A DNA stretch of 64,000 nucleotides, from positions 1-64,000 of the forward strand of contig CAMAYC010000008.1 of NCBI GenBank assembly GCA_945862125.1, read 5' to 3'. The position numbers and the translations under genes are program-made. The notes beneath the pieces are model-generated. The model had not been told where the DNA came from, made no database searches, and saw nothing but the letters and a program-made list of their open reading frames with translations. Positions within the stretch are counted from its first letter, which is position 1; every line of letters starts with the position of its first letter. Of the stretch, positions 36,870 through 48,878 are shown piece after piece. The stretch comes from Reyranella massiliensis 521 (GTDB taxonomy: Bacteria > Pseudomonadota > Alphaproteobacteria > Reyranellales > Reyranellaceae).

Positions 36870-37583
36870 ATGCGACCGGACACGGCTCTCGAGGCACGCT
36901 CAGATCCTTTCGACATGCCCTTCGTCATTGAGTGCGCGCCGCCGTTTCTGACGGCGCGCTTTGCCGCGCCTCAGCGTACGCTGGGCTGGTCGCTGCTTCA
37001 CCCCGGCTTTGCCGTCGTGACCGATGTCGTCTGGGTAGAAGTCCGCAACAGCGATCTCGGGCTCTCGATCGATCCGCGTGCTTTTCTGAAGGCGCGGCTG
37101 GCAGACTCGGGGTTGCCGCATGCGCTGGCCTTCATGACGTCCCGCGATATCCGCCACCATCACTTCTGCGAGCGGCGCGTCGATGCCGTCGCGGCGACCT
37201 GCCTGACCACGGTCGGCCTCTCGAATGGCGAGCGCGTCGGGTCTCGCAAGGCCTCAGCGCGTCCCCACGTCGGCACGATCAACACACTGCTGCATGTTTC
37301 TGAGCCGCTGACCGACGGCGCCATGATCGAAGCGCTTTCCATCGTCGCCCAGGCGAGAACGGCCGCCATCATCGACTCGTGGCGGGCGGAGCGTGGAACC
37401 GCCGTCACCGGGACGGGGACCGACTGCATCGTGGTGGCGTCTCCCTGTCGGCGCGAGCCTCTCGCCTTCGCCGGTCTCCACACCCCAGTCGGCGAGGCGA
37501 TCGGTGGCGCCGTCTACGACGCCACGCGGAGCGGTGCCGAACAATGGGATCGGGATTTCCCGCACGCGGCGCCGGGCGATTGA
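36870..37583 (+). CDS. cbiZ: Adenosylcobinamide amidohydrolase CbiZ
   Basis: A 237-residue cytoplasmic protein matching CbiZ: HVGTINTLLHVSEPLTDGAM, QARTAAIIDSW, TGTGTDCIVVASP and LHTPVGEAIGGAVYDA. CbiZ cleaves the amide link between the corrin ring and the aminopropanol arm, so that cobinamide or pseudo-B12 can be rebuilt through cobyric acid. GAAGAGAAG precedes the ATG at 36870. It stands upstream of a riboswitch-led B12 uptake operon on the same strand, which matches a corrinoid-remodelling role. Confidence 0.92.
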   Translation: MRPDTALEARSDPFDMPFVIECAPPFLTARFAAPQRTLGWSLLHPGFAVVTDVVWVEVRNSDLGLSIDPRAFLKARLADSGLPHALAFMTSRDIRHHHFCERRVDAVAATCLTTVGLSNGERVGSRKASARPHVGTINTLLHVSEPLTDGAMIEALSIVAQARTAAIIDSWRAERGTAVTGTGTDCIVVASPCRREPLAFAGLHTPVGEAIGGAVYDATRSGAEQWDRDFPHAAPGD

Positions 37584-37641: not shown

Positions 37642-38556
37642 ATGCTTCGCTCGCTCCTTCTCGATCACATACACGACCCTGAAGCGAGCTGGAGTTGCGG
37701 ACGGTTCGGCGCCATCGCGGAATTCCATCGCGATCCCGACGAGCAGGTCGAGATCTCGATCGAACCGTCGATTACGGCGGCGACCAGCCGGGGCGCGATC
37801 CGCCTGGACGTGCTGCCTGACGTGCGGCCTGTCGCCTACGAGACGATCACCTCGTGCATCGAGACCTGGGGCCAGGGCGTGGTGCTCTGCCTGCCGCAAG
37901 AGACGGCGGCGATGAGCGGCCGCACGGTCGTGACCGAACTCGGGCCCGACCGCGACGCCGTTCGGCCGCAGGATCGCGACGCCATCCTGTTCGACGTCGG
38001 CCTCGGCGGCACGCAAGCCGACATCTGCGTGCGCTCGGACGATCCCGAGACTATCGCCCTGCTGCGGGCCGCCTGCGGCCAGCCGATGATGCAGAATGTT
38101 GCCTTGGCGCATCGGTTGCCCGCGCTCAGCCCCCATCGCGTCTTCTGCAGCCGCATGGGCCGTGTCGAGGTCTACCAGCCGATCCCCGCCCCCGACGGCA
38201 AATCGCCGGAAGGACCGCACACGCACGTGCTGCCGCGTCTGCTGGCGCACGGAAGGCTCAATGCCGCGACCGTGCCGGTGCCCGATGGCTGGCTCGCCGG
38301 CATGTCGCTGTTTCCGGCGCATCCGCTGATGCGGTCCGACGGCGAGCGAACGTCGTTCGACGCCGCGCGCTATCGGGCCTTTCAGGCACTCATGGACCGC
38401 TTCGGCGATCCGGCGCTGGTCGCCGGCAAGCAGGCGGCTTTCGCCGGGTCTCATGAAGATATTGCCGATAGTGACGAGCGCCGTCACGCCATCGGCTTTC
38501 GTATCGGCCAGCGCCAGCAGCCGTGGCTCCGGAGCGCGATTGCGGCAGATTCTTGA
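37642..38556 (+). CDS. Uncharacterised protein of the corrinoid locus
   Basis: A 304-residue cytoplasmic protein I cannot assign to a named family. It has several short motifs with Cys and His (FCSRMGRVEVYQP, GPHTHVLPRLLAHGRLN, VPVPDGWLAGMSLFPAHP). It follows cbiZ by 58 bp and ends just before the cobalamin promoter and riboswitch. The ATG at 37642 or the in-frame TTG at 37630 could be the start. Its place suggests a role in corrinoid use, which is inference only. Confidence 0.7.
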   Translation: MLRSLLLDHIHDPEASWSCGRFGAIAEFHRDPDEQVEISIEPSITAATSRGAIRLDVLPDVRPVAYETITSCIETWGQGVVLCLPQETAAMSGRTVVTELGPDRDAVRPQDRDAILFDVGLGGTQADICVRSDDPETIALLRAACGQPMMQNVALAHRLPALSPHRVFCSRMGRVEVYQPIPAPDGKSPEGPHTHVLPRLLAHGRLNAATVPVPDGWLAGMSLFPAHPLMRSDGERTSFDAARYRAFQALMDRFGDPALVAGKQAAFAGSHEDIADSDERRHAIGFRIGQRQQPWLRSAIAADS

Positions 38557-38580
38557 CGCCAAAACCTGATGAGCTACATT
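38553..38580 (+). promoter_or_regulatory. Sigma-70-like promoter of the B12 uptake operon
   Basis: TTGACG (38553-38558) and TACATT (38575-38580) are separated by 16 bp. The site overlaps the end of the preceding gene and sits right before the riboswitch, where the operon's promoter must be. Confidence 0.55.
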
Positions 38581-38589
38581 AGCTGCTAT

Positions 38590-38760
38590 CGACGGTCTTC
38601 CTTAACCGGAAGCTAAGAGGGAACGCCGTGCTGTCCTTAGGGACTAATCGGCGGCTGTACCCGCAGCTGTAAGCGGAGAGCTGTTGCCCACACGTCACTG
38701 GACCTCGGTCTGGGAAGACGGGCAGGAGCTGGGACCCGCGAGCCAGAAGACCTGCCGGCG
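38590..38760 (+). promoter_or_regulatory. Cobalamin (AdoCbl) riboswitch
   Basis: The leader contains the B12-riboswitch landmarks in order: a 5' stem near 38592, AGAGGGAA near 38615, the CTGTACCCGCAGCTGTAAGCGG-type core (38655-38676), CACTG, TGGGAAGACGG (38711-38721), and a near-perfect B12 box GCCAGAAGACCTGCC (38742-38756). Cobalamin binding should reduce expression of the btuB operon that follows. End points are approximate. Confidence 0.95.
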
Positions 38761-38855
38761 ATAGCGTCGCTCTTCCGATGGACGGGACAATCCAACGGGA
38801 CGGTCAACCGAGCGGTGACGCGCCTTGTGCGTGTGCTGTTCTGGAGGACCGTCTC

Positions 38856-40769
38856 ATGACGCCGTTCTGTCGATTTCTGTTCGTCCTGCTCCTTCTCGTG
38901 CCCGGCGCGGCATTTGGCCAGACCGAACCGGCCATAATGGTGCCCGACCTGGTCGTCACCGCCGACCGCTTCCCGACTGATCCCAACAAGGTCACCTCGA
39001 GCTACACCGTTGTCATGCAGGAAGAGATGCAGCGCCGTCAGCTCAGGACCGCGGGCGAAGTCCTGAAGACGGTGCCGGGCGTGTCGGTGCAGCAGTCGGG
39101 CGGACCGGGCACGCAGACCTCGGTTTTCATCCGAGGCTCGAACTCGAACCATGTGCTGGTGCTGATCGATGGCATCACCGCCAACGATCCATCGAGCGCC
39201 AATGGCGCCGCTGACTTTGCCAATTTCCTCACCGAGAATCTCGACCGCATCGAGATTGTGCGCGGCCCCATGAGCACGATGTACGGCAGCCAGGCGATCG
39301 GCGGTGTCGTCAGCATGGTGACCAAGGCCGGCAAGGGGCCGATGAATGGTGCTGCCTTCACCGAGCTCGGCACCCGTCTGTGGAGCAACAGCGGTGCCTT
39401 CGTGCGCGGCAGCGAGGGTCGCTTCAACTACAACCTTTCCTTCGCCGGCACCTTCTCGCCCAACGACACGCCCGTGCCGGCGCGTTTCACGCCTCCCGGC
39501 GGTTACGTCGACATCGATCCCTACCGCAACATCACAGTGGCGTCACGGCTGGGCTTCGAGATCAACGACAACACGCAGTTCAACTGGTACACGCGCTACA
39601 TCGACTCCAAGCTCAACTATGACCAGATCGGCGCGGAGGACCCCAACGCCAACGGGTACTCCTCGCAGTTCTACACGCGTGGCGAACTCGAAGGATCTTA
39701 CTTCGACGGCCGCTGGAAGCCAGTCATCGGCGTCAATTACAGCACGATCACCCGGCACGATATGGACTATCCGAGCGTGCAGAACCTGACGCCGTTCAAT
39801 ACCGATTCCTGGTTCAACGGCCGCCGCCTGCAGGCGGATTTCAAGAACCTTGTGACCGTCACCGATTGGGTCGATGTCATTGCCGGCGTCGATTACGACC
39901 GGCAGTGGGCCTACACCAACACGGTGGGTTCGTTCACGCCCTATACGCAGGGATGGGGGGCGATGACACAGACCGGCCTCTACGGTCAGCTCCGCCTCAA
40001 TCCCTTCGAGGGCTTCAATCTCAATGTCGGCGGGCGCTCCGACTTCAACGACACCTTCGGTACCGTCGGTACGTGGCGTGCCGGGGCATCCTACCTATGG
40101 GCGCCAACCGATACCAAGTTCAAGGGATCGTACGGCACGGCGTTCAAGGCGCCGTCGCTGTTCGAGCTCTATGGTCCCGGCGCCTTCTGCGGCGGCAATC
40201 GCAACCTTCAGCCGGAGTACAGCCGCGGCTATGAATTCGGCGTCGAGCAGGGAATCTTCGACCGTAAGGTCAAGGCCGGCATTACCTACTTCTTCAATAC
40301 CTACTCGAACCTGATCCAGTGTCCGCCACCCTTCCTCGCGCTCCAGAACGTCGCCAATGCGCAGAGCGAGGGGTTCGAGGCGACCGTCCAGGTTAGCCCG
40401 GTAAAGTGGTTCGACTTCTACTTCGACTACACCCACACCTTCGCGCGCAACGTCGACACCAACGTGGTACTGGTGCGCCGCCCGCAGGATGTCTTCAATA
40501 TCCGGGCCGAAGTGCGGCCGTGGACGGACACTCTGTTCGGCATCGGCATCCTGCAGGTCAGCAACCGCACCGATTTCAACGCCACGACCGGCGTCATCAT
40601 GAACCCGTCGCCCTATACGCTGGTGCGCATCACAGCGCAGTACGATGTCGTCAAGAACGTCCAGCTGTTTGCCCGCGCGGAGAACGTGCTCAACCGGGTC
40701 TATGAGGAGCCGGAAGGCTTCCAGGCGCCGTACTTCCAGGCCTTCTTCGGCATCAAGGCGAAGTTTTGA
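38856..40769 (+). CDS. btuB: TonB-dependent vitamin B12 receptor BtuB
   Basis: A 637-residue outer-membrane receptor. A signal peptide ends AFGQ; a TonB box PDLVVTA follows as in known BtuB; the plug domain has GEVLKTVPGVSVQQSGGPG, VFIRGSNSNHVLVLIDG and RIEIVRGPMSTMYGS; the rest is a 22-strand-type barrel ending in Phe. It imports cobalamins and cobinamides using TonB energy. GGAGG precedes the ATG at 38856, about 100 bp after the riboswitch's B12 box. It is the first gene of the operon. Confidence 0.95.
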   Translation: MTPFCRFLFVLLLLVPGAAFGQTEPAIMVPDLVVTADRFPTDPNKVTSSYTVVMQEEMQRRQLRTAGEVLKTVPGVSVQQSGGPGTQTSVFIRGSNSNHVLVLIDGITANDPSSANGAADFANFLTENLDRIEIVRGPMSTMYGSQAIGGVVSMVTKAGKGPMNGAAFTELGTRLWSNSGAFVRGSEGRFNYNLSFAGTFSPNDTPVPARFTPPGGYVDIDPYRNITVASRLGFEINDNTQFNWYTRYIDSKLNYDQIGAEDPNANGYSSQFYTRGELEGSYFDGRWKPVIGVNYSTITRHDMDYPSVQNLTPFNTDSWFNGRRLQADFKNLVTVTDWVDVIAGVDYDRQWAYTNTVGSFTPYTQGWGAMTQTGLYGQLRLNPFEGFNLNVGGRSDFNDTFGTVGTWRAGASYLWAPTDTKFKGSYGTAFKAPSLFELYGPGAFCGGNRNLQPEYSRGYEFGVEQGIFDRKVKAGITYFFNTYSNLIQCPPPFLALQNVANAQSEGFEATVQVSPVKWFDFYFDYTHTFARNVDTNVVLVRRPQDVFNIRAEVRPWTDTLFGIGILQVSNRTDFNATTGVIMNPSPYTLVRITAQYDVVKNVQLFARAENVLNRVYEEPEGFQAPYFQAFFGIKAKF

Positions 40770-41599
40770 GGAAAACCGGCCGGCGTGACTTGCTGACGGC
40801 GGCGCTGAGTGGGGTAAGCTTCCCTACCGTGGGACCCGCAAAGGCAGACATGCCGGCGACCGTGGCGCTGCTTCATCTGGCGCCACGGCCCGGCGAGATC
40901 GAGCACAACCAGCGTCTGGTCGCGGCAGCCGTGAAGCGCGCCGCCAGCCTCGGCGCGCGCTTCGTCGTCAGTCCCGAACTGGTGCTGAGCGGCTACGGAT
41001 TTCGCGACATCATCGGCACCGACTGGATCGCCGAGGACCAGGCGGCGCGCACTGCCTGGGCGCAGGACCTTGCCCGGCAGGCATCGGTGTTCCTGCTGCT
41101 GGGCACGCCCGAGGCTGACGGGCGCCTGTTCAACAGCCTGATCCTGTTCGGTCCCGACGGCACGAGGATTGGCCACCATCGCAAGATCATGGTCCTGAAA
41201 GTCGGCTCGGAATCGTGGTCCACGGCCGGCGGCCAGCCGACGGTGATGACCGTGGACGGCATCGGCCGCGTCGGGCTGTTCGTCTGCGCCGACATGTATT
41301 CCAGGCGGCTGGTCGACGAGACCGCCGCCGCAGGAGTCGATCTTATGGTCTCGTCGGCCGCCTGGGCGCCTGGCCATCACGGCCCCAACGGCGAATGGGA
41401 AAGGGCGTCGCTGGAGGTCGAGCGGCCCGTCCTGGTCTGCAATCGCACCGGCGTCGATGCGATGGATTTTACGGGATCTCGGTCGGTCGCCGCGATCAAC
41501 GGTACGATCGCCTTCACCCACAGCTCACCCGACTCCGCGACCATCCTGGTCGAGTGGAACCGAACGGCGCGGTCCCTGGCGAACTGGCGCGTGGTCTGA
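40766..41599 (+). CDS. Tat-exported nitrilase-superfamily amidohydrolase in the B12 operon
   Basis: A 277-residue carbon-nitrogen hydrolase. The catalytic triad is complete: Glu71 (SPELVLSGY), Lys140 (HRKIMVL) and Cys174 (LFVCADMY). The N-terminus TGRRDLLTAALSG with a later AKAD looks like a Tat signal, so it acts in the periplasm. It starts with TTG overlapping the btuB stop and is followed 5 bp later by btuF, inside the riboswitch-controlled unit. Family members hydrolyse amides, and corrinoids carry several, so a corrinoid amide is an attractive but unproved substrate. Confidence 0.85.
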   Translation: MRKTGRRDLLTAALSGVSFPTVGPAKADMPATVALLHLAPRPGEIEHNQRLVAAAVKRAASLGARFVVSPELVLSGYGFRDIIGTDWIAEDQAARTAWAQDLARQASVFLLLGTPEADGRLFNSLILFGPDGTRIGHHRKIMVLKVGSESWSTAGGQPTVMTVDGIGRVGLFVCADMYSRRLVDETAAAGVDLMVSSAAWAPGHHGPNGEWERASLEVERPVLVCNRTGVDAMDFTGSRSVAAINGTIAFTHSSPDSATILVEWNRTARSLANWRVV

Positions 41600-41604
41600 C
41601 GGCC

Positions 41605-42420
41605 ATGTGGAAGTGGATCCTGTCCGTGCTCGCCTGCCTGACGATCGGAGCGCCTGTCAACGCACAGGCACCGCAGCGGGTCGTCACGGTCAACCTCTGC
41701 CTCGACCAGATCGCGCTCCGTCTTGCAGCACCAGGCCAGCTCGTCGGCGTCAGCCATCTGGCGCACGATCCCCGCATTTCCGTTCTGTCCGACCGTGCGC
41801 GGGCCGTCGCCCCCGTGCGCGCCACGGTCGAGTCGATCCTCACCTTGCGTCCGGACCTCGCGATCATGGACGATAGCAGCCATCTCAACCTGAAACGCCT
41901 GTTGCGTGGCGCCGGTGTTGCCATCCTCGAAGTGCCGTGGGCGGCCTCGCTCGACGAGGCGGAAGCGCTGATTGCCCGAATGGCTTCGGCGATGGGGCGG
42001 GACGAGGCAGGCCGCGCCCTGATCGCCGACATGCAGGCGGAGAGAGGCCAGATCATGCCGCCGGGGCCGCCGTTCGCCCGGGCCGCTGTGCTGCAGGCCA
42101 ATCGCGGCACGACCGGCAAGGGCAGCCTGATGGACGAGCTGTTGCGGCTCGCCGGTCTGCGCAACTACGCCGCCGAGCTCGGCATACCGGCCTACGGCCG
42201 ATGGTCGCTTGAAACGGTCCTGTCGGGCCAGCCTGACGTGCTTGTCGTCGATGGCATGGCCAACGCCAACCCGGCGCGGGCGACCGAGTTCGTCGACCAC
42301 CACGCGCTCCGCAGCCTCGCGGGACGGGCGCGCGTCATATCGGTGCCGCTCAGATATTCGATCTGCGCCGGCCCCGAGAATCTCGAGGTTGTCCGGTTGC
42401 TGGCGCCGGCGCGGCCATGA
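41605..42420 (+). CDS. btuF: Periplasmic cobalamin-binding protein BtuF
   Basis: A 271-residue class III periplasmic binding protein. A signal peptide ends VNAQ; the mature part starts RVVTVNLCLDQIALRLA, with the helical-backbone layout of BtuF/FhuD proteins and DLAIMDDSS, YGRWSLETVL and PDVLVVDG. It takes corrinoids from BtuB to BtuCD. It lies between the exported amidase and btuC, overlapping btuC by 4 bp. Confidence 0.88.
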   Translation: MWKWILSVLACLTIGAPVNAQAPQRVVTVNLCLDQIALRLAAPGQLVGVSHLAHDPRISVLSDRARAVAPVRATVESILTLRPDLAIMDDSSHLNLKRLLRGAGVAILEVPWAASLDEAEALIARMASAMGRDEAGRALIADMQAERGQIMPPGPPFARAAVLQANRGTTGKGSLMDELLRLAGLRNYAAELGIPAYGRWSLETVLSGQPDVLVVDGMANANPARATEFVDHHALRSLAGRARVISVPLRYSICAGPENLEVVRLLAPARP

Positions 42421-43373
42421 AGCGATGGCTCCTCCTGGTGGTGATCGCGCTCTTCCTGCTGTCGCTCGCGGTCGGCCCGGCGTGGTGGCCGTGGCGGCTG
42501 GGCAACGAAGTCGGCTGGGCCATCGTCTGGGAGCTGCGCGTGCCGCGCGCGACGCTCGGCCTGCTGATCGGCGGTGTCCTGGGATTGAGCGGTGCGGTGC
42601 TGCAGGGCTGGCTGCGCAATCCCCTGGCCGAACCCGGCGTGATCGGCGTTTCCGCGTGTGCGGGCTTTGCGGCCGTGTGCGCTTTCTACAGCGGCCTCGC
42701 GGCGGTTTTTTCTCTCGCCTTGCCCCTGGCGGGCGTTGCCGGCGCCGCCATTGCCGTAGCGTTGCTGATGGCGGCCGTTCGCTCGGGCGCCGGCACGGTA
42801 TCGCTTCTGCTGATGGGCGTTGCGATCAACGCCATCGCCGCGGCGCTGATCTCGCTGGTCCTGGCGCTTTCACCCAATCCGTTCGCCTACCAGGAGATCT
42901 CGCTCTGGCTCGCCGGCTCGATCGTCGACCGTGACCTCCGCTACCTCGCGATCGCCGCGCCCTTCATGATCCTGGGCGCCGCCATCGTGCTGGGCGCTGG
43001 CCGCTGGCTCGATGCTTTGTCGCTGGGAGAGGATACAGCGCGCAGCCTCGGCGCCGATACGAAGTCGCTCGGGCTGCGCCTGACACTCGGCGTCGGGATG
43101 ATGGTGGGCGCGGCGACGTCGGTCGCCGGCATCATCGGCTTCGTGGGCCTGATCGCTCCTCACCTGATCCGTTCGCGCGTCGGCTTCCGGCCCGGCGCGA
43201 CGTTGGTGCCCTCCATGCTGGTCGGTGCCGCCCTGGTGCTGGCGGCCGACATCGCTGTGCGCCTGCTGCCGACGTCGTACGAGCTGCAGCTCGGCGTCGT
43301 CACGTCACTGGTGGGCGCGCCGTTCCTCGTGCGCGCCGTGCGCAAGGCCCGTGCCGCGTGGCTGGCCGCATGA
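42417..43373 (+). CDS. btuC: Cobalamin ABC transporter permease BtuC
   Basis: A 318-residue FecCD-family permease with about ten hydrophobic segments. Family motifs are LRVPRATLGLLIGGVLGLSGAVLQGWLRNPLAEPGVIG, shown here only as landmarks at residues 38-76, and GFVGLIAPHLIR near the C-terminus. It forms the inner-membrane corrinoid channel with BtuD. Overlaps of 4 bp on both sides show translational coupling. Confidence 0.92.
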   Translation: MKRWLLLVVIALFLLSLAVGPAWWPWRLGNEVGWAIVWELRVPRATLGLLIGGVLGLSGAVLQGWLRNPLAEPGVIGVSACAGFAAVCAFYSGLAAVFSLALPLAGVAGAAIAVALLMAAVRSGAGTVSLLLMGVAINAIAAALISLVLALSPNPFAYQEISLWLAGSIVDRDLRYLAIAAPFMILGAAIVLGAGRWLDALSLGEDTARSLGADTKSLGLRLTLGVGMMVGAATSVAGIIGFVGLIAPHLIRSRVGFRPGATLVPSMLVGAALVLAADIAVRLLPTSYELQLGVVTSLVGAPFLVRAVRKARAAWLAA

Positions 43374-44146
43374 CCGTGCTCGCCGCCCGCGGCCTGGTCT
43401 GCCGCCGAGACGACAAGCTCGTCCTCGACGGCATCGACCTCGACCTCACCGCCGGAAAGCTCACCGCCATCGTCGGACCCAACGGCGCCGGTAAGACGAC
43501 CCTGCTGCGTCTCCTTGCCGGACTCGACATGCCGGAGGTGGGTCGTCTCGAATTGGATGGCGAGCCATTGGCGTCAATTCCCGCCAGGCTTCGAGCAGTG
43601 CGCGTTGCGTACCTGGCGCAAGCCGCCAACGCCTACTGGCCGTTGAGTGGACACGATCTGGTGGCCCTTGGCCGCCTGCCGCACGGCGCGGATCTCAGCC
43701 GGCCGTTGAAGCCAGTTGATGCACAAGCGGTGCGCCGGGCCCTGGATCGCGTCCGTGGCCTCATGTTGGCTGATCGCACCATCGATACGCTGTCACAAGG
43801 CGAGCGCGCGCGATTGATGCTGGCGCGATCACTGGCCACCGAGGCGCCGGTGCTGTTGGTCGACGAACCGGTCGCCAGCCTCGACCCCGCCTATGCGCTC
43901 GAAGCCATGGCGTTGTTGCGCGACGAGGCGGCGGCGGGCGTCTGCGTCGTGGTTGTCCTGCACGACCTTGGGCTTGCAGCACGGTTCGCCGACCGTGTCG
44001 TCGTGGTCGACGAGGGTAAGATCGTGGCCGATGGCCTTCCAGAAATTGCTCTTGCAGCAGAAGTGATCGATGCCGCCTACGGCGTCGCGTTCAGGCATGT
44101 CCGCGTCGAGGGCGTCACATTGCCGATCGCATGGCTGCAAAAGTGA
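43370..44146 (+). CDS. btuD: Cobalamin ABC transporter ATPase BtuD
   Basis: A 258-residue ABC ATPase of the FecE/BtuD type: Walker A GPNGAGKT, signature LSQGERARLMLARSL, Walker B VLLVDEPVASLDP and VVLHDLGLAARFAD. It powers corrinoid uptake with BtuC. The ATG at 43370 overlaps the btuC stop by 4 bp. It is the last gene of the riboswitch-led operon. Confidence 0.92.
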   Translation: MTVLAARGLVCRRDDKLVLDGIDLDLTAGKLTAIVGPNGAGKTTLLRLLAGLDMPEVGRLELDGEPLASIPARLRAVRVAYLAQAANAYWPLSGHDLVALGRLPHGADLSRPLKPVDAQAVRRALDRVRGLMLADRTIDTLSQGERARLMLARSLATEAPVLLVDEPVASLDPAYALEAMALLRDEAAAGVCVVVVLHDLGLAARFADRVVVVDEGKIVADGLPEIALAAEVIDAAYGVAFRHVRVEGVTLPIAWLQK

Positions 44147-44215
44147 CCGGCTTCTGACGAAGTCGACTCGATTTTGCCATTCCCTTCCGCGTCCCGCCTC
44201 TGCACTCTGCCGCCC

Positions 44216-45034
44216 ATGACAAATCAAGCGACACTCGCCCACGACAACTGGGGCTGGCGGGCCCGGATCGGCATGTTCATCGTCGGCAGCGAGGCTGTGC
44301 CGGAAGCCGAATGGGGAGCGATGGTTCCCCCGGGGGTCTCGGTGCACGCCGCCCGCGTGACGGCGAAGACGCCCTGGGCGGCTTGGCGCGACGGCAAGAC
44401 CGAGGTCGATCTCGCTGAGGACCTGGCGCGCGGCGCGAAGCAGTTCGCGGCCATGCGGCTCACCGCGGTCGTGCTCGGTCATACGTCCAGCAGCGTGGTC
44501 GGCGGCAAGGGCTGGGACGAGGCCACCGCGTCGAGCCTCGCCGCGATCGTGGGCGCGGGAGCGCTGGCAAAGGGCGCGAAGGTCACGACCAACGGTCTCG
44601 ACACGATGGCGGCGCTTCGCGCCTCTGGCGTGAAGCGGCCGTTCCTGGTGCTGCCGCCGTGGTTTCCCGACGACACGGCGAAGGCCGCTGTCCGCTACTA
44701 CACCGATCACGGGTTCGCGCCGGCCGGCCATCACCGCATGGACCCGGGCCGCAAGTGGCGCGACGTGCCGCCGGGCGATCTCTACGGGCTGGGCATGGGC
44801 TTCGAGCAGGAGGTCGAGCCGCTCTATGCCCAGATCCGCGCCGCCTGCCCGGCCGAGGCCGACGGCGTGCTGATCGGGGGCACCGGCTTTCGCTGCGTGG
44901 CGATCCTCGAGACTCTGGAGCAGGACCTCAAGCGGCCGGTGATCTCGGCCAACCAGGCGAGCCTCTGGCATTGCCTCAGGCTCTCGGGCGTGAACACGCC
45001 GGTCCAGGGCTACGGCAACCTGCTCAGGCTGTGA
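44216..45034 (+). CDS. Asp/Glu racemase-superfamily protein (maleate isomerase/arylmalonate decarboxylase-like)
   Basis: A 272-residue cytoplasmic protein resembling maleate isomerase and arylmalonate decarboxylase. It has IGMFIVGSEAVPEAEW at the N-terminus, VVLGHTSSS in the position of the first catalytic loop, and GGTGFRCVAILE with a catalytic-type cysteine near the C-terminus. These enzymes use one or two cysteines to isomerise or decarboxylate small diacids. The substrate is unknown. The next gene starts within its stop codon. Confidence 0.75.
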   Translation: MTNQATLAHDNWGWRARIGMFIVGSEAVPEAEWGAMVPPGVSVHAARVTAKTPWAAWRDGKTEVDLAEDLARGAKQFAAMRLTAVVLGHTSSSVVGGKGWDEATASSLAAIVGAGALAKGAKVTTNGLDTMAALRASGVKRPFLVLPPWFPDDTAKAAVRYYTDHGFAPAGHHRMDPGRKWRDVPPGDLYGLGMGFEQEVEPLYAQIRAACPAEADGVLIGGTGFRCVAILETLEQDLKRPVISANQASLWHCLRLSGVNTPVQGYGNLLRL

Positions 45035-45623: not shown

Positions 45624-45896
45624 ATGTCCGAGACCCTGGAGCGCGTGAAGCGCATCGTCGACGAGCATCTGGGCTCGGCGGGCGGTCCCATCACCGAACA
45701 GTCACGCTTCGTCGACGACCTGGGCGCCGACAGTCTCGACACGGTCGAACTCGCCATGGCGTTCGAGGACGCCTTCCACGTCGAGATTTCCGATGCGAAG
45801 GCCAAGGAACTGCTGACCGTGGGCGAGGCCGTGGCCTATATCGACAGCCTGCCCAGGATCTCCAAGAAAATGCCGCGGCTGCGCCGTCGGGCGTGA
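45624..45896 (+). CDS. Acyl carrier protein
   Basis: A 90-residue acyl carrier protein. The phosphopantetheine serine is Ser37 in GADSLDTVELAMAFE. The C-terminus carries an unusual basic tail (RISKKMPRLRRRA). It is alone, without fatty-acid or polyketide genes, so it may be an auxiliary carrier rather than the main AcpP. Confidence 0.88.
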   Translation: MSETLERVKRIVDEHLGSAGGPITEQSRFVDDLGADSLDTVELAMAFEDAFHVEISDAKAKELLTVGEAVAYIDSLPRISKKMPRLRRRA

Positions 45897-45961: not shown

Positions 45962-47590
45962 TCATCCTCTGAACCCATTCACGATCGGGTAGCGGCGCTC
46001 GCGGCTGATCAGGCGTGAGGTGATCTTCACCCCGGGCGGCGCCTGGCGGCGCTTGTATTCGGCGCCCTCGAGCAGGCGCCAGACGCGATTGACGGTGGCG
46101 AGGTCGTGGCCTTCGGCGGCGAGTGCCGCGGCGTCGAGGTCGCGTTCGATCAGGCCCTTCAGGATGGCGTCGAGGATTGGATACGGCGGCAGCGAATCCT
46201 CGTCCTTCTGGTCGGGCCGCAGTTCGGCCGACGGCGGCTTGGTGAGGATGCGTTCGGGGATCACCCTGCCCTGCCCGTTCCGCCACTTGCAGAGCTCGAA
46301 CACCGTCGTCTTGTAGACGTCCTTCAGGACGTTGTAGCCGCCGTTCATGTCGCCGTAGAGCGTGGCGTAGCCCATCGCCATTTCCGACTTGTTGCCGGTC
46401 GTCAGCACCATGCCGCCCAGCTTATTCGACACCGCCATCAAGGTGACGCCGCGGGCGCGGCTCTGGATATTCTCCTCGGTGACGTCCTCGGGCCGGTTGC
46501 CGAACAGCGGTTTCAGCATGTCGCGGAAGGCATTCATCGCGGGCTCGATGCTCACGATGTCGTATTTTATGCCGATCGCTTTCGCGCAGGCCTCGGCATC
46601 CTCCAGCGACTCCCGGCTGGTGTAGGGCGACGGCATCATGATGGCGTGCACCCGTTCCGGGCCCAGCGCATCGGCCGCCACCGCCGCCGTCAGCGCCGAA
46701 TCGACGCCGCCCGAGAGGCCGATCACCACCGAGGGGAAGCCGGTCTTGTTCACATAGTCGCCGAGGCCCAGCACCATCGCCTGGTAGATCGATTCGATCT
46801 GCTCCAGTTCCGGCGCGATCGGTCCAGGCAGGCACTCCCAGCCTTTTCCATCGCGGCGGAATTCGACGGTCGTCACCTGCTCGCGGAACGAGGCGAGCTT
46901 GGCCTTCAGCTTGCGGTCGGCGCCCAGCACGAAGGAGGCGCCGTCGTAGACCACCTCGTCCTGCCCGCCGACCTGGTTGAGATAGACGAACGGCAGGCCG
47001 CTCTCGACCACGCGCTGCACGCCGAGGTTTTCGCGGACGTCGGTCTTGCCGATCTCATAGGGCGAGGCGTTGGGCACCAGCAGGATCTCGCCGCCGGTCT
47101 CGGAAATGCACTCGACGACGTCGGGCGTCCACACGTCCTCGCAGATCGGCACGCCGATGCGCACGCCCTTGAAGACCAGCGGCCCCGGCATCGGGCCGGC
47201 TGCAAACACGCGCTTGTCGTCGAACACGCCATAGTTCGGCAGGTCGACCTTGTAGCGCTTGCCGATGATCTCGCCCTTATCGAGGGCGATCATGGCGTTG
47301 TAGAGCTTGCCGTCCTCCTGCCAGGGTGTGGCCACAAACAGCGCAGGGCCGCCGTCGCGCGTGTCGGCACGCAGCGCCTCGACCGCCTCGTGGCAGGCCT
47401 TCTGGAAAGCGGGCTTCAGCATAAGATCCTCGGGGAAGTATCCGGCGAGGACGAGCTCCGTCGTCAGCACGAGGTCGGCGCCTTGCCTGGCCGCCTCAGC
47501 GCGCGCCGCCCGCACCTTGGCGAGGTTGCCGGCGACGTCGCCGACCTTGGGATTGAGCTGGGCGAGGCCGACTTTGAGGGAGTCTGTCAT
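45962..47590 (-). CDS. nadE: Glutamine-dependent NAD+ synthetase
   Basis: A 542-residue two-domain enzyme. The N-terminal nitrilase-type glutaminase has Glu in TTELVLAGYFPED, Lys in GKRYKVDLP and Cys in PICEDVW. The C-terminal synthetase has the P-loop GLSGGVDSAL, LTTGNKSEMAMGYATLYGD and KDEDSLPPY. It amidates nicotinate adenine dinucleotide to NAD+. The ATG at 47590 starts at MTDSLKVGLAQLNP, the usual N-terminus. Confidence 0.96.
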   Translation of the reverse strand: MTDSLKVGLAQLNPKVGDVAGNLAKVRAARAEAARQGADLVLTTELVLAGYFPEDLMLKPAFQKACHEAVEALRADTRDGGPALFVATPWQEDGKLYNAMIALDKGEIIGKRYKVDLPNYGVFDDKRVFAAGPMPGPLVFKGVRIGVPICEDVWTPDVVECISETGGEILLVPNASPYEIGKTDVRENLGVQRVVESGLPFVYLNQVGGQDEVVYDGASFVLGADRKLKAKLASFREQVTTVEFRRDGKGWECLPGPIAPELEQIESIYQAMVLGLGDYVNKTGFPSVVIGLSGGVDSALTAAVAADALGPERVHAIMMPSPYTSRESLEDAEACAKAIGIKYDIVSIEPAMNAFRDMLKPLFGNRPEDVTEENIQSRARGVTLMAVSNKLGGMVLTTGNKSEMAMGYATLYGDMNGGYNVLKDVYKTTVFELCKWRNGQGRVIPERILTKPPSAELRPDQKDEDSLPPYPILDAILKGLIERDLDAAALAAEGHDLATVNRVWRLLEGAEYKRRQAPPGVKITSRLISRERRYPIVNGFRG

Positions 47591-47639
47591 TTGGAGTCTA
47601 TCATTTGTGGGCGAGTGTGCCGGTTTTCGTAGGCCTTGT

Positions 47640-48878
47640 TCAGGGCGAATGTTGTCCATCATCGCCGGCCGCCGGCACGAGGGTCCAGGCGACGAGCGCC
47701 GCCAGCGCCGATGCGAGGGCCGCGACGGCGAAGGTGAGCGGCGCGGAATGCACGATGAGGATGCCGCCGATGGCCGATCCCACCGGCAGTCCGGACATGT
47801 TGAAGCTCATCGACACGGCGAGCACGCGGCCGAGCCAGGCCGGATCGGTCCGACGCTGCCGCAAGGACAGAACACCGACATCGACCGGGCCTTCCAGGAA
47901 CCCCACGAGGACGAGGCCCACCGCCAGGCCTGCCAGGCCGAAGCTCGCGCTCACCGGATAGATGGCGACGGCCGTAGCCAAAGTGCCGACCGCGATGAAC
48001 TGCCGCTCGCGGCCGATCGTGCGGAGATGGCCCACGTAGAGGGCGCCGAGACCGCCGGCCAGGCCGGCCACGGCCCACAGAACGCCGACGACGGAGTCCG
48101 CGAGCGCGCCGGCACCAAGTTCCCGCACCACGACGACGGGCACGGCCACGACGAGAACGCCCCAGCTCGCCTGAAACAGGGCATAGGAGATGGCGAGGCT
48201 TCGCAGCGACACATGGCGCAGGACGTAGACGACGCCCGCCCAGGCATCGCGGACGAGCGACTTTCCCGCAGTCCCGAGCGCGCTTGAAGTGCGGCGCACC
48301 AGCGGCACGAGGCTAATGCTCGCCGCCGCATAGAGCAGCACGATCAGCAGCATCGTCGCCTGAGCCCCGGCAAAGCCGAACAGCACGCCGGCCACGGCAG
48401 GGCCGGCCACGTTGATGAGCGCGTAGCTGCTGGTATCCAGCGCGTTGGCGAGATCCAGCGACTCCTTCGGCACGAGACGCGGGATCAGGACACGGATGCC
48501 GGCGGTTCCGAGCGGACTGGTCAACGAATAGAGCGCCACGAAGCCCAGCAGCAGCGGCGCCGTGACGAGGCCCGCGATATCGGCGGCGGCGAGTGCCAGC
48601 AACAGCAGCGTGCTCGCGGCCATGTCGAGGGCGATCGCCTTCGCCGCGCCGAGGCGATCGAGCAGCGCGCCGGCCAGCGGACTGACCAAAAGGCCCGGCA
48701 TCATCGAGGCGAAGGCCACCCATCCCGCGAGCACGGGCGAGTCGAAGCGATCCAGAACGTAGAGGACGATGACGAGCACGAACATGCGGCTCGCCAGGCG
48801 CGAGAGACACGCCGCCAGGAACAGCTGCGGCATGCCGTCCAGCCGCAGCAGCCGCCGATAAGAGAGGGGAGCCGTCAA
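47640..48878 (-). CDS. Major facilitator superfamily transporter
   Basis: A 412-residue inner-membrane MFS protein with about 12 hydrophobic segments and LAGALLDRLGAAKAIA as the loop 2-3 motif. It resembles drug- or enterobactin-type exporters (MFS_3). The only in-frame starts are TTG at 48878 and ATG at 48833 (second is 15 residues later); neither has a good ribosome site. It lies 49 bp before nadE on the same strand. The substrate is unknown. Confidence 0.85.
   Translation of the reverse strand: MTAPLSYRRLLRLDGMPQLFLAACLSRLASRMFVLVIVLYVLDRFDSPVLAGWVAFASMMPGLLVSPLAGALLDRLGAAKAIALDMAASTLLLLALAAADIAGLVTAPLLLGFVALYSLTSPLGTAGIRVLIPRLVPKESLDLANALDTSSYALINVAGPAVAGVLFGFAGAQATMLLIVLLYAAASISLVPLVRRTSSALGTAGKSLVRDAWAGVVYVLRHVSLRSLAISYALFQASWGVLVVAVPVVVVRELGAGALADSVVGVLWAVAGLAGGLGALYVGHLRTIGRERQFIAVGTLATAVAIYPVSASFGLAGLAVGLVLVGFLEGPVDVGVLSLRQRRTDPAWLGRVLAVSMSFNMSGLPVGSAIGGILIVHSAPLTFAVAALASALAALVAWTLVPAAGDDGQHSP

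Follow-up and report, generated by a model that had tools for sequence, protein, structure and literature searches.

The window, a stretch of 64,000 nucleotides, was found to carry a corrinoid uptake operon led by a cobalamin riboswitch, in which a predicted nitrilase-superfamily amidase (here NIT) is situated between btuB and btuF. Established here at the level of sequence are its fold and catalytic triad, the operon with its riboswitch, the inheritance of NIT along with btuC, and export signals that vary. There is about an even chance that NIT is dedicated to corrinoid salvage, as an amidase whose target bond differs from the aminopropanol link that CbiZ cuts. A little-studied amidase which lies among the B12 uptake genes of two unrelated bacterial groups and is switched by a riboswitch probably serves to trim an amide of B12-like molecules that the cell scavenges.

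Organization of the riboswitch-led btu operon

The features of the region are as follows.

36870..37583, + strand: cbiZ, adenosylcobinamide amidohydrolase (PF01955, E 1.7e-46), upstream of the riboswitch
37642..38556, + strand: DUF6925 gene (PF21973, 370.9 bits)
38576..38773, + strand: cobalamin riboswitch RF00174 (130.8 bits, E 1.3e-32)
38856..40769, + strand: btuB, TonB-dependent corrinoid receptor (PF00593 and PF07715; Plug, TonB_dep_Rec)
40766..41599, + strand: NIT, predicted nitrilase-superfamily (CN hydrolase) amidase (PF00795, 83.2 bits; triad E71-K140-C174)
40766..40849, + strand: Tat-like signal region of NIT, LRKTGRRDLLTAALSGVSFPTVGPAKAD, recognized from sequence and removed if the ATG at 40850 is the start
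41605..42420, + strand: btuF, periplasmic corrinoid-binding protein (PF01497, Peripla_BP_2)
42417..43373, + strand: btuC, permease (PF01032, FecCD; BtuC is the best NCBIfam match)
43370..44146, + strand: btuD, ATPase (PF00005, ABC_tran)
45962-47662: NadE, a gene separate from NIT

The gene order in the window annotation is cobalamin riboswitch, btuB, NIT, btuF, btuC and btuD. The initial annotation had placed NIT in a riboswitch-led btu operon between btuB and btuF, and the RF00174 match, the coordinates and the Pfam assignments all agree with it. The start codon of NIT is a TTG which overlaps the btuB TGA by 4 nt, and btuF begins 5 nt past the NIT stop, in agreement with the overlap and the 5-bp spacing described earlier. 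An RF00174 aptamer lies upstream in the same orientation and the operon has no gap up to NIT, which places the gene in the cobalamin-riboswitch regulon. Among NCBIfam models, the B12 receptor family TIGR01779 gave the top match for BtuB at 285 bits, under the equivalog cut-off. An additional in-frame ATG for btuB is present at 38778. Two upstream genes had been overlooked earlier, namely cbiZ, 3.2 kb upstream of NIT, and the DUF6925 gene just upstream of the riboswitch, which recurs next to this locus in other Reyranella genomes.

Fold, active site and export signal of NIT

NIT matched the CN_hydrolase family PF00795 far above its cut-off of 23.2 bits, and this was the only Pfam domain found; the PF01955 domain of CbiZ is absent. 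Its AlphaFold2 model has a mean pLDDT of 84.8 and the alpha-beta-beta-alpha fold of CN hydrolases, and all the Foldseek matches listed were CN hydrolases (E down to 6e-19). The Glu71-Lys140-Cys174 triad, reported as intact in the initial annotation, proved invariant in 24 Reyranella orthologs as well as among 21 sequences from several phyla, and it aligns with the catalytic residues of PH0642/6ypa. From these features we infer that NIT has amidase activity. It passed the cut-off of no named NCBIfam nitrilase equivalog (NadE, archaeal nitrilase, AguB, Nit6803), the best being 65 bits vs 479, and pantetheinase was a weak profile match. The btu-linked Nitrospira clade is without the second active-site-region glutamate (E149), hinting that its substrate may differ.

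The N-terminus of NIT in the window (GRRDLL...PAKA) is Tat-like, with a twin-arginine and an AxA-type site (AKA), and the internal ATG at 40850 (residue 29) is where the signal-less orthologs start. The RRxLL Tat motif is kept in 17 of the 25 Reyranella orthologs and no signal peptide is found in 8 of them, nor in any btu-linked Nitrospira/Nitrospirota ortholog. The NIT tree requires at least 6 changes of the Tat motif and at least 4 of btu adjacency, and such repeated changes fit a substrate present in both compartments. In one clade the Tat region showed a coding-like pN/pS of 0.42, a value drawn from few sites with low synonymous variation, and other comparisons were uninformative. As judged from the ortholog N-termini, export of NIT is not conserved, and a universal periplasmic enzyme is ruled out. 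The earlier description of NIT as an exported protein is favored by the Tat-like N-terminus in the window and weakened by the TTG start, the internal ATG and the orthologs without signal; the window copy is plausibly Tat-exported. The further claim of a periplasmic step before BtuF finds no support as a general statement: a signal is missing from 8 of the 25 orthologs in Reyranella and from every btu-linked one in Nitrospirota. These orthologs are predicted to be cytoplasmic, a location which the initial annotation had itself set against its proposal.

Co-inheritance with corrinoid uptake and candidate substrates

The source genome of the window groups with Reyranella. Among the 65 genomes of the genus Reyranella surveyed, NIT is present in 25, this btuC in 25 and both in 24, giving the table [[24,1],[1,39]], a statistic which ignores shared ancestry and which a single operon moving as a unit would reproduce identically. 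In 22 of 24 relatives, NIT lies immediately upstream of btuFCD. In four Reyranella genomes (L054, L055, L056 and L060) the riboswitch is followed directly by NIT, with no btuB between, and in G049 NIT lies outside the btu operon yet still downstream of a cobalamin riboswitch. In Nitrospira, which belongs to a different phylum, the arrangement is btuF-btuC-btuD-NIT-riboswitch-btuB, with nucleotide-loop genes and cbiZ coming next; these clusters hold cbiB, cobU, cobS and cobT, and also carry cobB and cobQ. The earlier reading of NIT as part of a corrinoid-uptake system under riboswitch control is supported, its membership appearing dedicated, and the proposed survey of btu operons in other genomes revealed a conserved association in Reyranella and Nitrospira. 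A chance neighbor is ruled out by the 22/24 synteny, the 24/25 co-occurrence and the second phylum.

Away from btu genes lie 33 of the 65 Nitrospirales copies, in genomes which have btuC elsewhere; the group A Nitrospira copies are stand-alone. A separate paralog beside a btu-linked copy was rejected for group A, as each of 35 tested genomes has one close copy (35/35), G079 having an extra weak match (E 5e-26). In G012, btuB and btuF are 33 bp apart with no NIT between. NIT is dispensable for uptake, given corrinoid import without it in G012 and in other genera, and a role as essential transport component is ruled out.

In the preferred explanation, scarcity of cobalamin would act through the riboswitch so that NIT and the BtuB-BtuFCD importer are made jointly. 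The Cys-Glu-Lys site of NIT would most likely hydrolyze an amide on the incoming corrinoid or on a corrinoid-derived fragment, probably one on a side chain and not the aminopropanol link that is the target of CbiZ. CbiZ, CobQ or further enzymes of salvage would then take over the product inside the cell. Because the substrate crosses both compartments, NIT could act in the periplasm or in the cytoplasm, and in this organism it is probably Tat-exported. Counting against this explanation, small amides (glutaramide, glutamine) are the substrates of the nearest relatives of solved structure, the 33 Nitrospirales copies are not btu-adjacent, and importers without NIT exist in G012 and other genera. 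A search of the open literature for a B12-linked nitrilase returned nothing relevant.

NIT may instead act on a non-corrinoid amide important under B12 scarcity, perhaps one of methionine, nitrogen or cofactor metabolism, its tie to uptake being co-regulation only; this is possible though on the unlikely side. Riboswitch regulons include non-uptake genes, and a riboswitch-led acyl-AMP ligase-like gene, for which no conserved downstream partner was common to all loci examined, lies beside the btu operon in L040, L061 and L190 and upstream of NIT in L051. The stand-alone group A copies and the small-amide substrates of solved relatives also suit such a role, whereas the position of NIT among importer genes in two phyla with differing orders, the near-perfect co-occurrence with btuC in Reyranella and the repeated gain or loss of export signals argue against it.

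A specific form of the corrinoid-salvage explanation, rather unlikely as it stands, is that NIT hydrolyzes a peripheral corrin amide, possibly a substituted one, after which the free acid is re-amidated by CobQ within the cell, making altered corrinoids usable. Full-length CobQ occurs in 8 of 9 NIT-containing genomes without CobJ and CbiB, and in none of the comparison set of 9 genomes of the family without CobJ, CbiB and NIT. The retained CobQ shows 84-94% conservation and its Cys/His site is intact, and the cobB and cobQ of the Nitrospira NIT clusters point the same way. A published Nitrospira with btuBDCF and without the full pathway likewise retains CobQ (PMC12542776). Against this, 7 of the 8 CobQ-keeping genomes are one clade, G029 and G049 have NIT without CobQ, plain removal and re-addition of an amide would be futile with no substituted corrin amide identified here, and CobQ alone may simply repair chemically damaged corrinoids. 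In the auxotroph clade, CobQ was not found beside a riboswitch or a cob cluster. That NIT and CobQ together constitute a corrin side-chain editing route is doubtful. In such a route the nitrilase, located in either the periplasm or the cytoplasm, would remove or trim amides at the periphery of scavenged corrinoids, and the cobyric acid synthase that these bacteria have kept would re-amidate them. If true, bacteria without ring synthesis and CbiB could repair or standardize corrinoids which others cannot use, a cobamide remodeling distinct from lower-ligand exchange.

It is improbable that NIT cleaves the amide joining aminopropanol to the f side chain of the corrin and so yields cobyric acid for rebuilding with a preferred lower ligand. 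The amidase fold, the location in uptake and salvage clusters as seen for CbiZ and CbiR, and the rebuilding genes cbiB, cobU, cobS and cobT of Nitrospira would allow it but NIT accompanies CbiZ rather than replacing it and CbiB is absent from 9 of 25 NIT-containing Reyranella genomes, including G025, G052 and G066 at 98-99% completeness. CbiB is needed for rebuilding the aminopropanol arm; without it cobyric acid would be a dead end in those genomes, which makes this amide, implied as a target in the initial annotation, an unlikely one. The NIT by CbiZ tables, in which ancestry is ignored, are [[64,1],[29,53]] for Nitrospirales, with cbiZ in 64 of 65 NIT-containing genomes, and [[10,15],[1,39]] for Reyranella. 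On this co-occurrence and the CbiB loss, NIT was rejected as a replacement of CbiZ, and a second CbiZ is unlikely. The statement that no enzyme of this kind had been described does not hold either, CbiZ being already known and encoded in the same window.

Comparison with known systems

Most cobamide-requiring bacteria scavenge cobamides, and to our knowledge only a few remodeling enzymes are known, namely CbiZ, CbiR and CobS. Which microbes are able to sustain one another depends on what is done to a foreign corrinoid as it is taken up. Reyranella and Nitrospira are both common in soil and water, and an enzyme of nitrilase fold inherited along with the importer in these two groups would bring a further step and another bond chemistry to remodeling. 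It would also provide a testable reason for the retention of CobQ in some auxotrophs that lack the remaining pathway.

NIT, a predicted amidase, shares its genetic coupling to corrinoid uptake and salvage with a known amide hydrolase, the adenosylcobinamide/pseudo-B12 amidohydrolase CbiZ (PF01955); unlike NIT, CbiZ belongs to another protein family, is cytoplasmic and hydrolyzes the corrinoid-aminopropanol amide (PMC3541065, PMC7733943). CbiR, the cobamide-remodeling hydrolase of Akkermansia, is also a non-CbiZ hydrolase found through its location beside corrinoid genes, and part of its family adjoins transporters (PMC7733943), but it is a member of the AP endonuclease 2 superfamily and the bond it breaks is the phosphoribosyl one in the nucleotide loop rather than an amide. 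The DUF71-B12 proteins are similarly an uncharacterized family with a B12 salvage role predicted from the btuCDF neighborhood (PMC3541065); they have a PP-loop ATPase fold and are a proposed CbiZ replacement, whereas NIT co-occurs with CbiZ. The archaeal nitrilase/glutaramide amidase PH0642 (1j31, 6ypa) is the closest solved structure by profile (E 1.6e-24) and shares triad and fold, but is ~20-25% identical, is without the W(A/G)PGxHGPNGEWE signature and has no B12 tie seen. The glutaminase domain of the NAD+ synthetase NadE gave the best NCBIfam resemblance, although NIT stays far under the cut-off and has no synthetase domain. Biotinidase and pantetheinase (vanin) are exported nitrilase-superfamily amidases which salvage vitamins; they differ from NIT in being animal proteins with an extra domain and in acting on other vitamins.

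Operon organization and the NIT family

The nitrilase-superfamily gene of the window (NIT) belongs to a gene family that is real and conserved, is under riboswitch control and is linked to the uptake of corrinoids. Directly behind the cobalamin riboswitch, the only one in the window, come btuB, NIT, btuF, btuC and btuD in an unbroken row, with Plug/TonB receptor, CN_hydrolase, Peripla_BP_2, FecCD and ABC_tran as Pfam domains. The TTG start codon of NIT overlaps the btuB stop and 5 nt separate its own stop from btuF, confirming the operon, overlap and spacing described in the initial annotation.

Features of the window around the operon
36870-37583, +, cbiZ, 5' of the riboswitch on the operon strand
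37642-38556, +, DUF6925 (PF21973) gene, 5' of the riboswitch on the operon strand
38576-38773, +, cobalamin riboswitch RF00174, 130.8 bits
40766-41599, +, NIT
44174-45034, arylmalonate decarboxylase/EutA-like protein, 3' of btuD
45624-45896, free-standing acyl carrier protein, 3' of btuD
45962-47662, -, NAD+ synthetase of the glutamine-dependent type that itself carries a CN_hydrolase domain; distantly related to NIT and only 4 kb from it

The DUF6925 gene recurs near the btu locus (L038, L040, L041, L047, L053, L054, L057, L058, L059, L061 and L191), either 5' of the riboswitch or 3' of btuD, and is possibly another corrinoid-linked gene.

No named NCBIfam nitrilase family reached cut-off for the window NIT. 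Its predicted structure is that of a CN hydrolase, with PH0642 as the closest solved relative by profile. The 75 genomes of the family possess 25 NIT genes, all within the genus Reyranella. The predicted triad (E71, K140, C174), earlier described as intact, is retained in 24 aligned orthologs and in more distant relatives. The latter, found by scanning the GTDB collection, are about 40-47% identical and come mostly from Nitrospira, with one from Acidobacterium and a few from Desulfuromonadales; they share the triad and the signature W(A/G)PGxHGPxGEWE ... VCNR(T/S)G. NIT has the anatomy of an amidase. In the btu-linked Nitrospira proteins (L122, L124, L126, L127, L135, L141), one residue behind the catalytic Lys is deleted and Glu149 is missing (SESW to SLSW), so their active site may not be the same as in the Reyranella type.

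Association with btu genes and location of the protein

A survey of genomes supported the association. NIT lies directly 5' of btuFCD in 22 of 24 Reyranella relatives; at L054, L055, L056 and L060 the riboswitch immediately precedes it with no btuB between. In G049, NIT is on a different contig from btuBFCD and still 3' of a cobalamin riboswitch, behind an AMP-binding enzyme gene. Among 65 genomes of the genus, 24 have both NIT and a close btuC and 39 neither, as raw counts ignoring ancestry; one has NIT only (G046, where the contig edge cuts off in btuF) and one btuC only (G012). Uptake does not need NIT, since in G012 btuB and btuF are 33 bp apart without it.

In three genomes, the gene of an AMP-binding enzyme (fatty-acyl-AMP ligase-like) adjoins the btu operon and is led by a second cobalamin riboswitch of its own. 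One would not expect B12 to repress an acyl ligase.

Riboswitch-led AMP-binding enzymes
L040, 13006-15080, adjoins btu operon
L061, 12607-14681, adjoins btu operon
L190, 2196-4271, adjoins btu operon
L051, 6830-8937, NIT directly after

One Nitrospira clade shows the order btuF-btuC-btuD-NIT-btuB, two riboswitches and then salvage genes, which at L122 and L127 are cobB, cobO, a nitroreductase-family gene (bluB by resemblance), adenosyltransferase, cobU, cobT, cobS, cbiB and cbiZ; in G180, cobQ was identified by sequence in such a cluster. NIT is divergent from btuFCD at L109 and L120. In other Nitrospira, NIT stands by itself, one close copy per genome, and btuC and cbiZ lie elsewhere. Overall, NIT adjoins btuC in 31 of 65 NIT-containing Nitrospirales, and the NIT protein tree requires at least 4 changes of btu adjacency. 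CbiZ is present in 64/65 NIT-containing Nitrospirales vs 29/82 of those without NIT; in Reyranella the figures are 10/25 and 1/40.

Export, also proposed earlier, held only in part. The window NIT has an N-terminal region ahead of the catalytic domain (LRKTGRRDLLTAALSGVSFPTVGPAKAD), and a twin-arginine region of this kind occurs in 17 of 25 Reyranella copies. It is absent from the other 8 and from btu-linked Nitrospira copies, which start at the catalytic domain; some Nitrospira copies not linked to btu have RRQFLQ-type signals. At least 6 changes of signal state are required on the tree, and in the window an alternative start, ATG 40850 (residue 29), would leave the signal out. A periplasmic step before BtuF is thus plausible for the window NIT and, as predicted from these N-termini, not the general arrangement. 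In one clade, pS of the Tat region (40766-40849 and orthologous N-termini) is 0.11 against 0.34 in the gene body, about one third, and this low synonymous variation suggests extra nucleotide-level constraint near the NIT start.

Possible substrate and relation to known enzymes

A role of NIT in corrinoid salvage, broadly understood, is highly probable; whether a corrinoid or corrinoid fragment is its putative substrate stands at about even chances. Profiles of CobJ, CbiB and CobB/CobQ were searched across the genomes of the family. Nine NIT-containing genomes (G025, G027, G029, G036, G044, G052, G058, G066, G067) lack both CobJ and CbiB, the latter needed for rebuilding the aminopropanol arm. 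Freed cobyric acid would therefore be of no use to them, which argues against a CbiZ-like role. A CobQ-type enzyme is kept in 8 of these 9, 7 of them from one clade, and in 0 of 9 genomes of the family without CobJ, CbiB and NIT by profile search, several genomes behind these counts being incomplete assemblies; CobQ is absent from G029 and G049. This CobQ has kept its full length and its catalytic motif, shows 84-94% identity within one clade and is encoded away from riboswitches; in G017 and G021 it occurs as a second copy. This pattern suggests salvage through corrinoids having free side-chain acids. On it rests the hypothesis of side-chain editing: NIT may hydrolyse a peripheral corrin amide, and CobQ would re-amidate the resulting acid once inside. 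CobQ is also kept by a published Nitrospira that has btuBDCF but lacks the full pathway (PMC12542776).

Highly conserved stand-alone CobQ in Reyranella species without CobJ, CobB and CbiB
L193, 8310-9812
L194, 7263-8780
L195-L201, equivalents

A nitrilase described in B12 uptake was not found in the open-access full-text literature. The wider claim that no enzyme of this kind is known had overlooked CbiZ, a corrinoid amidohydrolase whose gene itself lies upstream in the window. The bond that CbiZ cleaves is the aminopropanol amide, that cleaved by CbiR the phosphoribosyl one (PMC7733943); DUF71-B12 proteins are CbiZ alternatives predicted by neighbourhood (PMC3541065).
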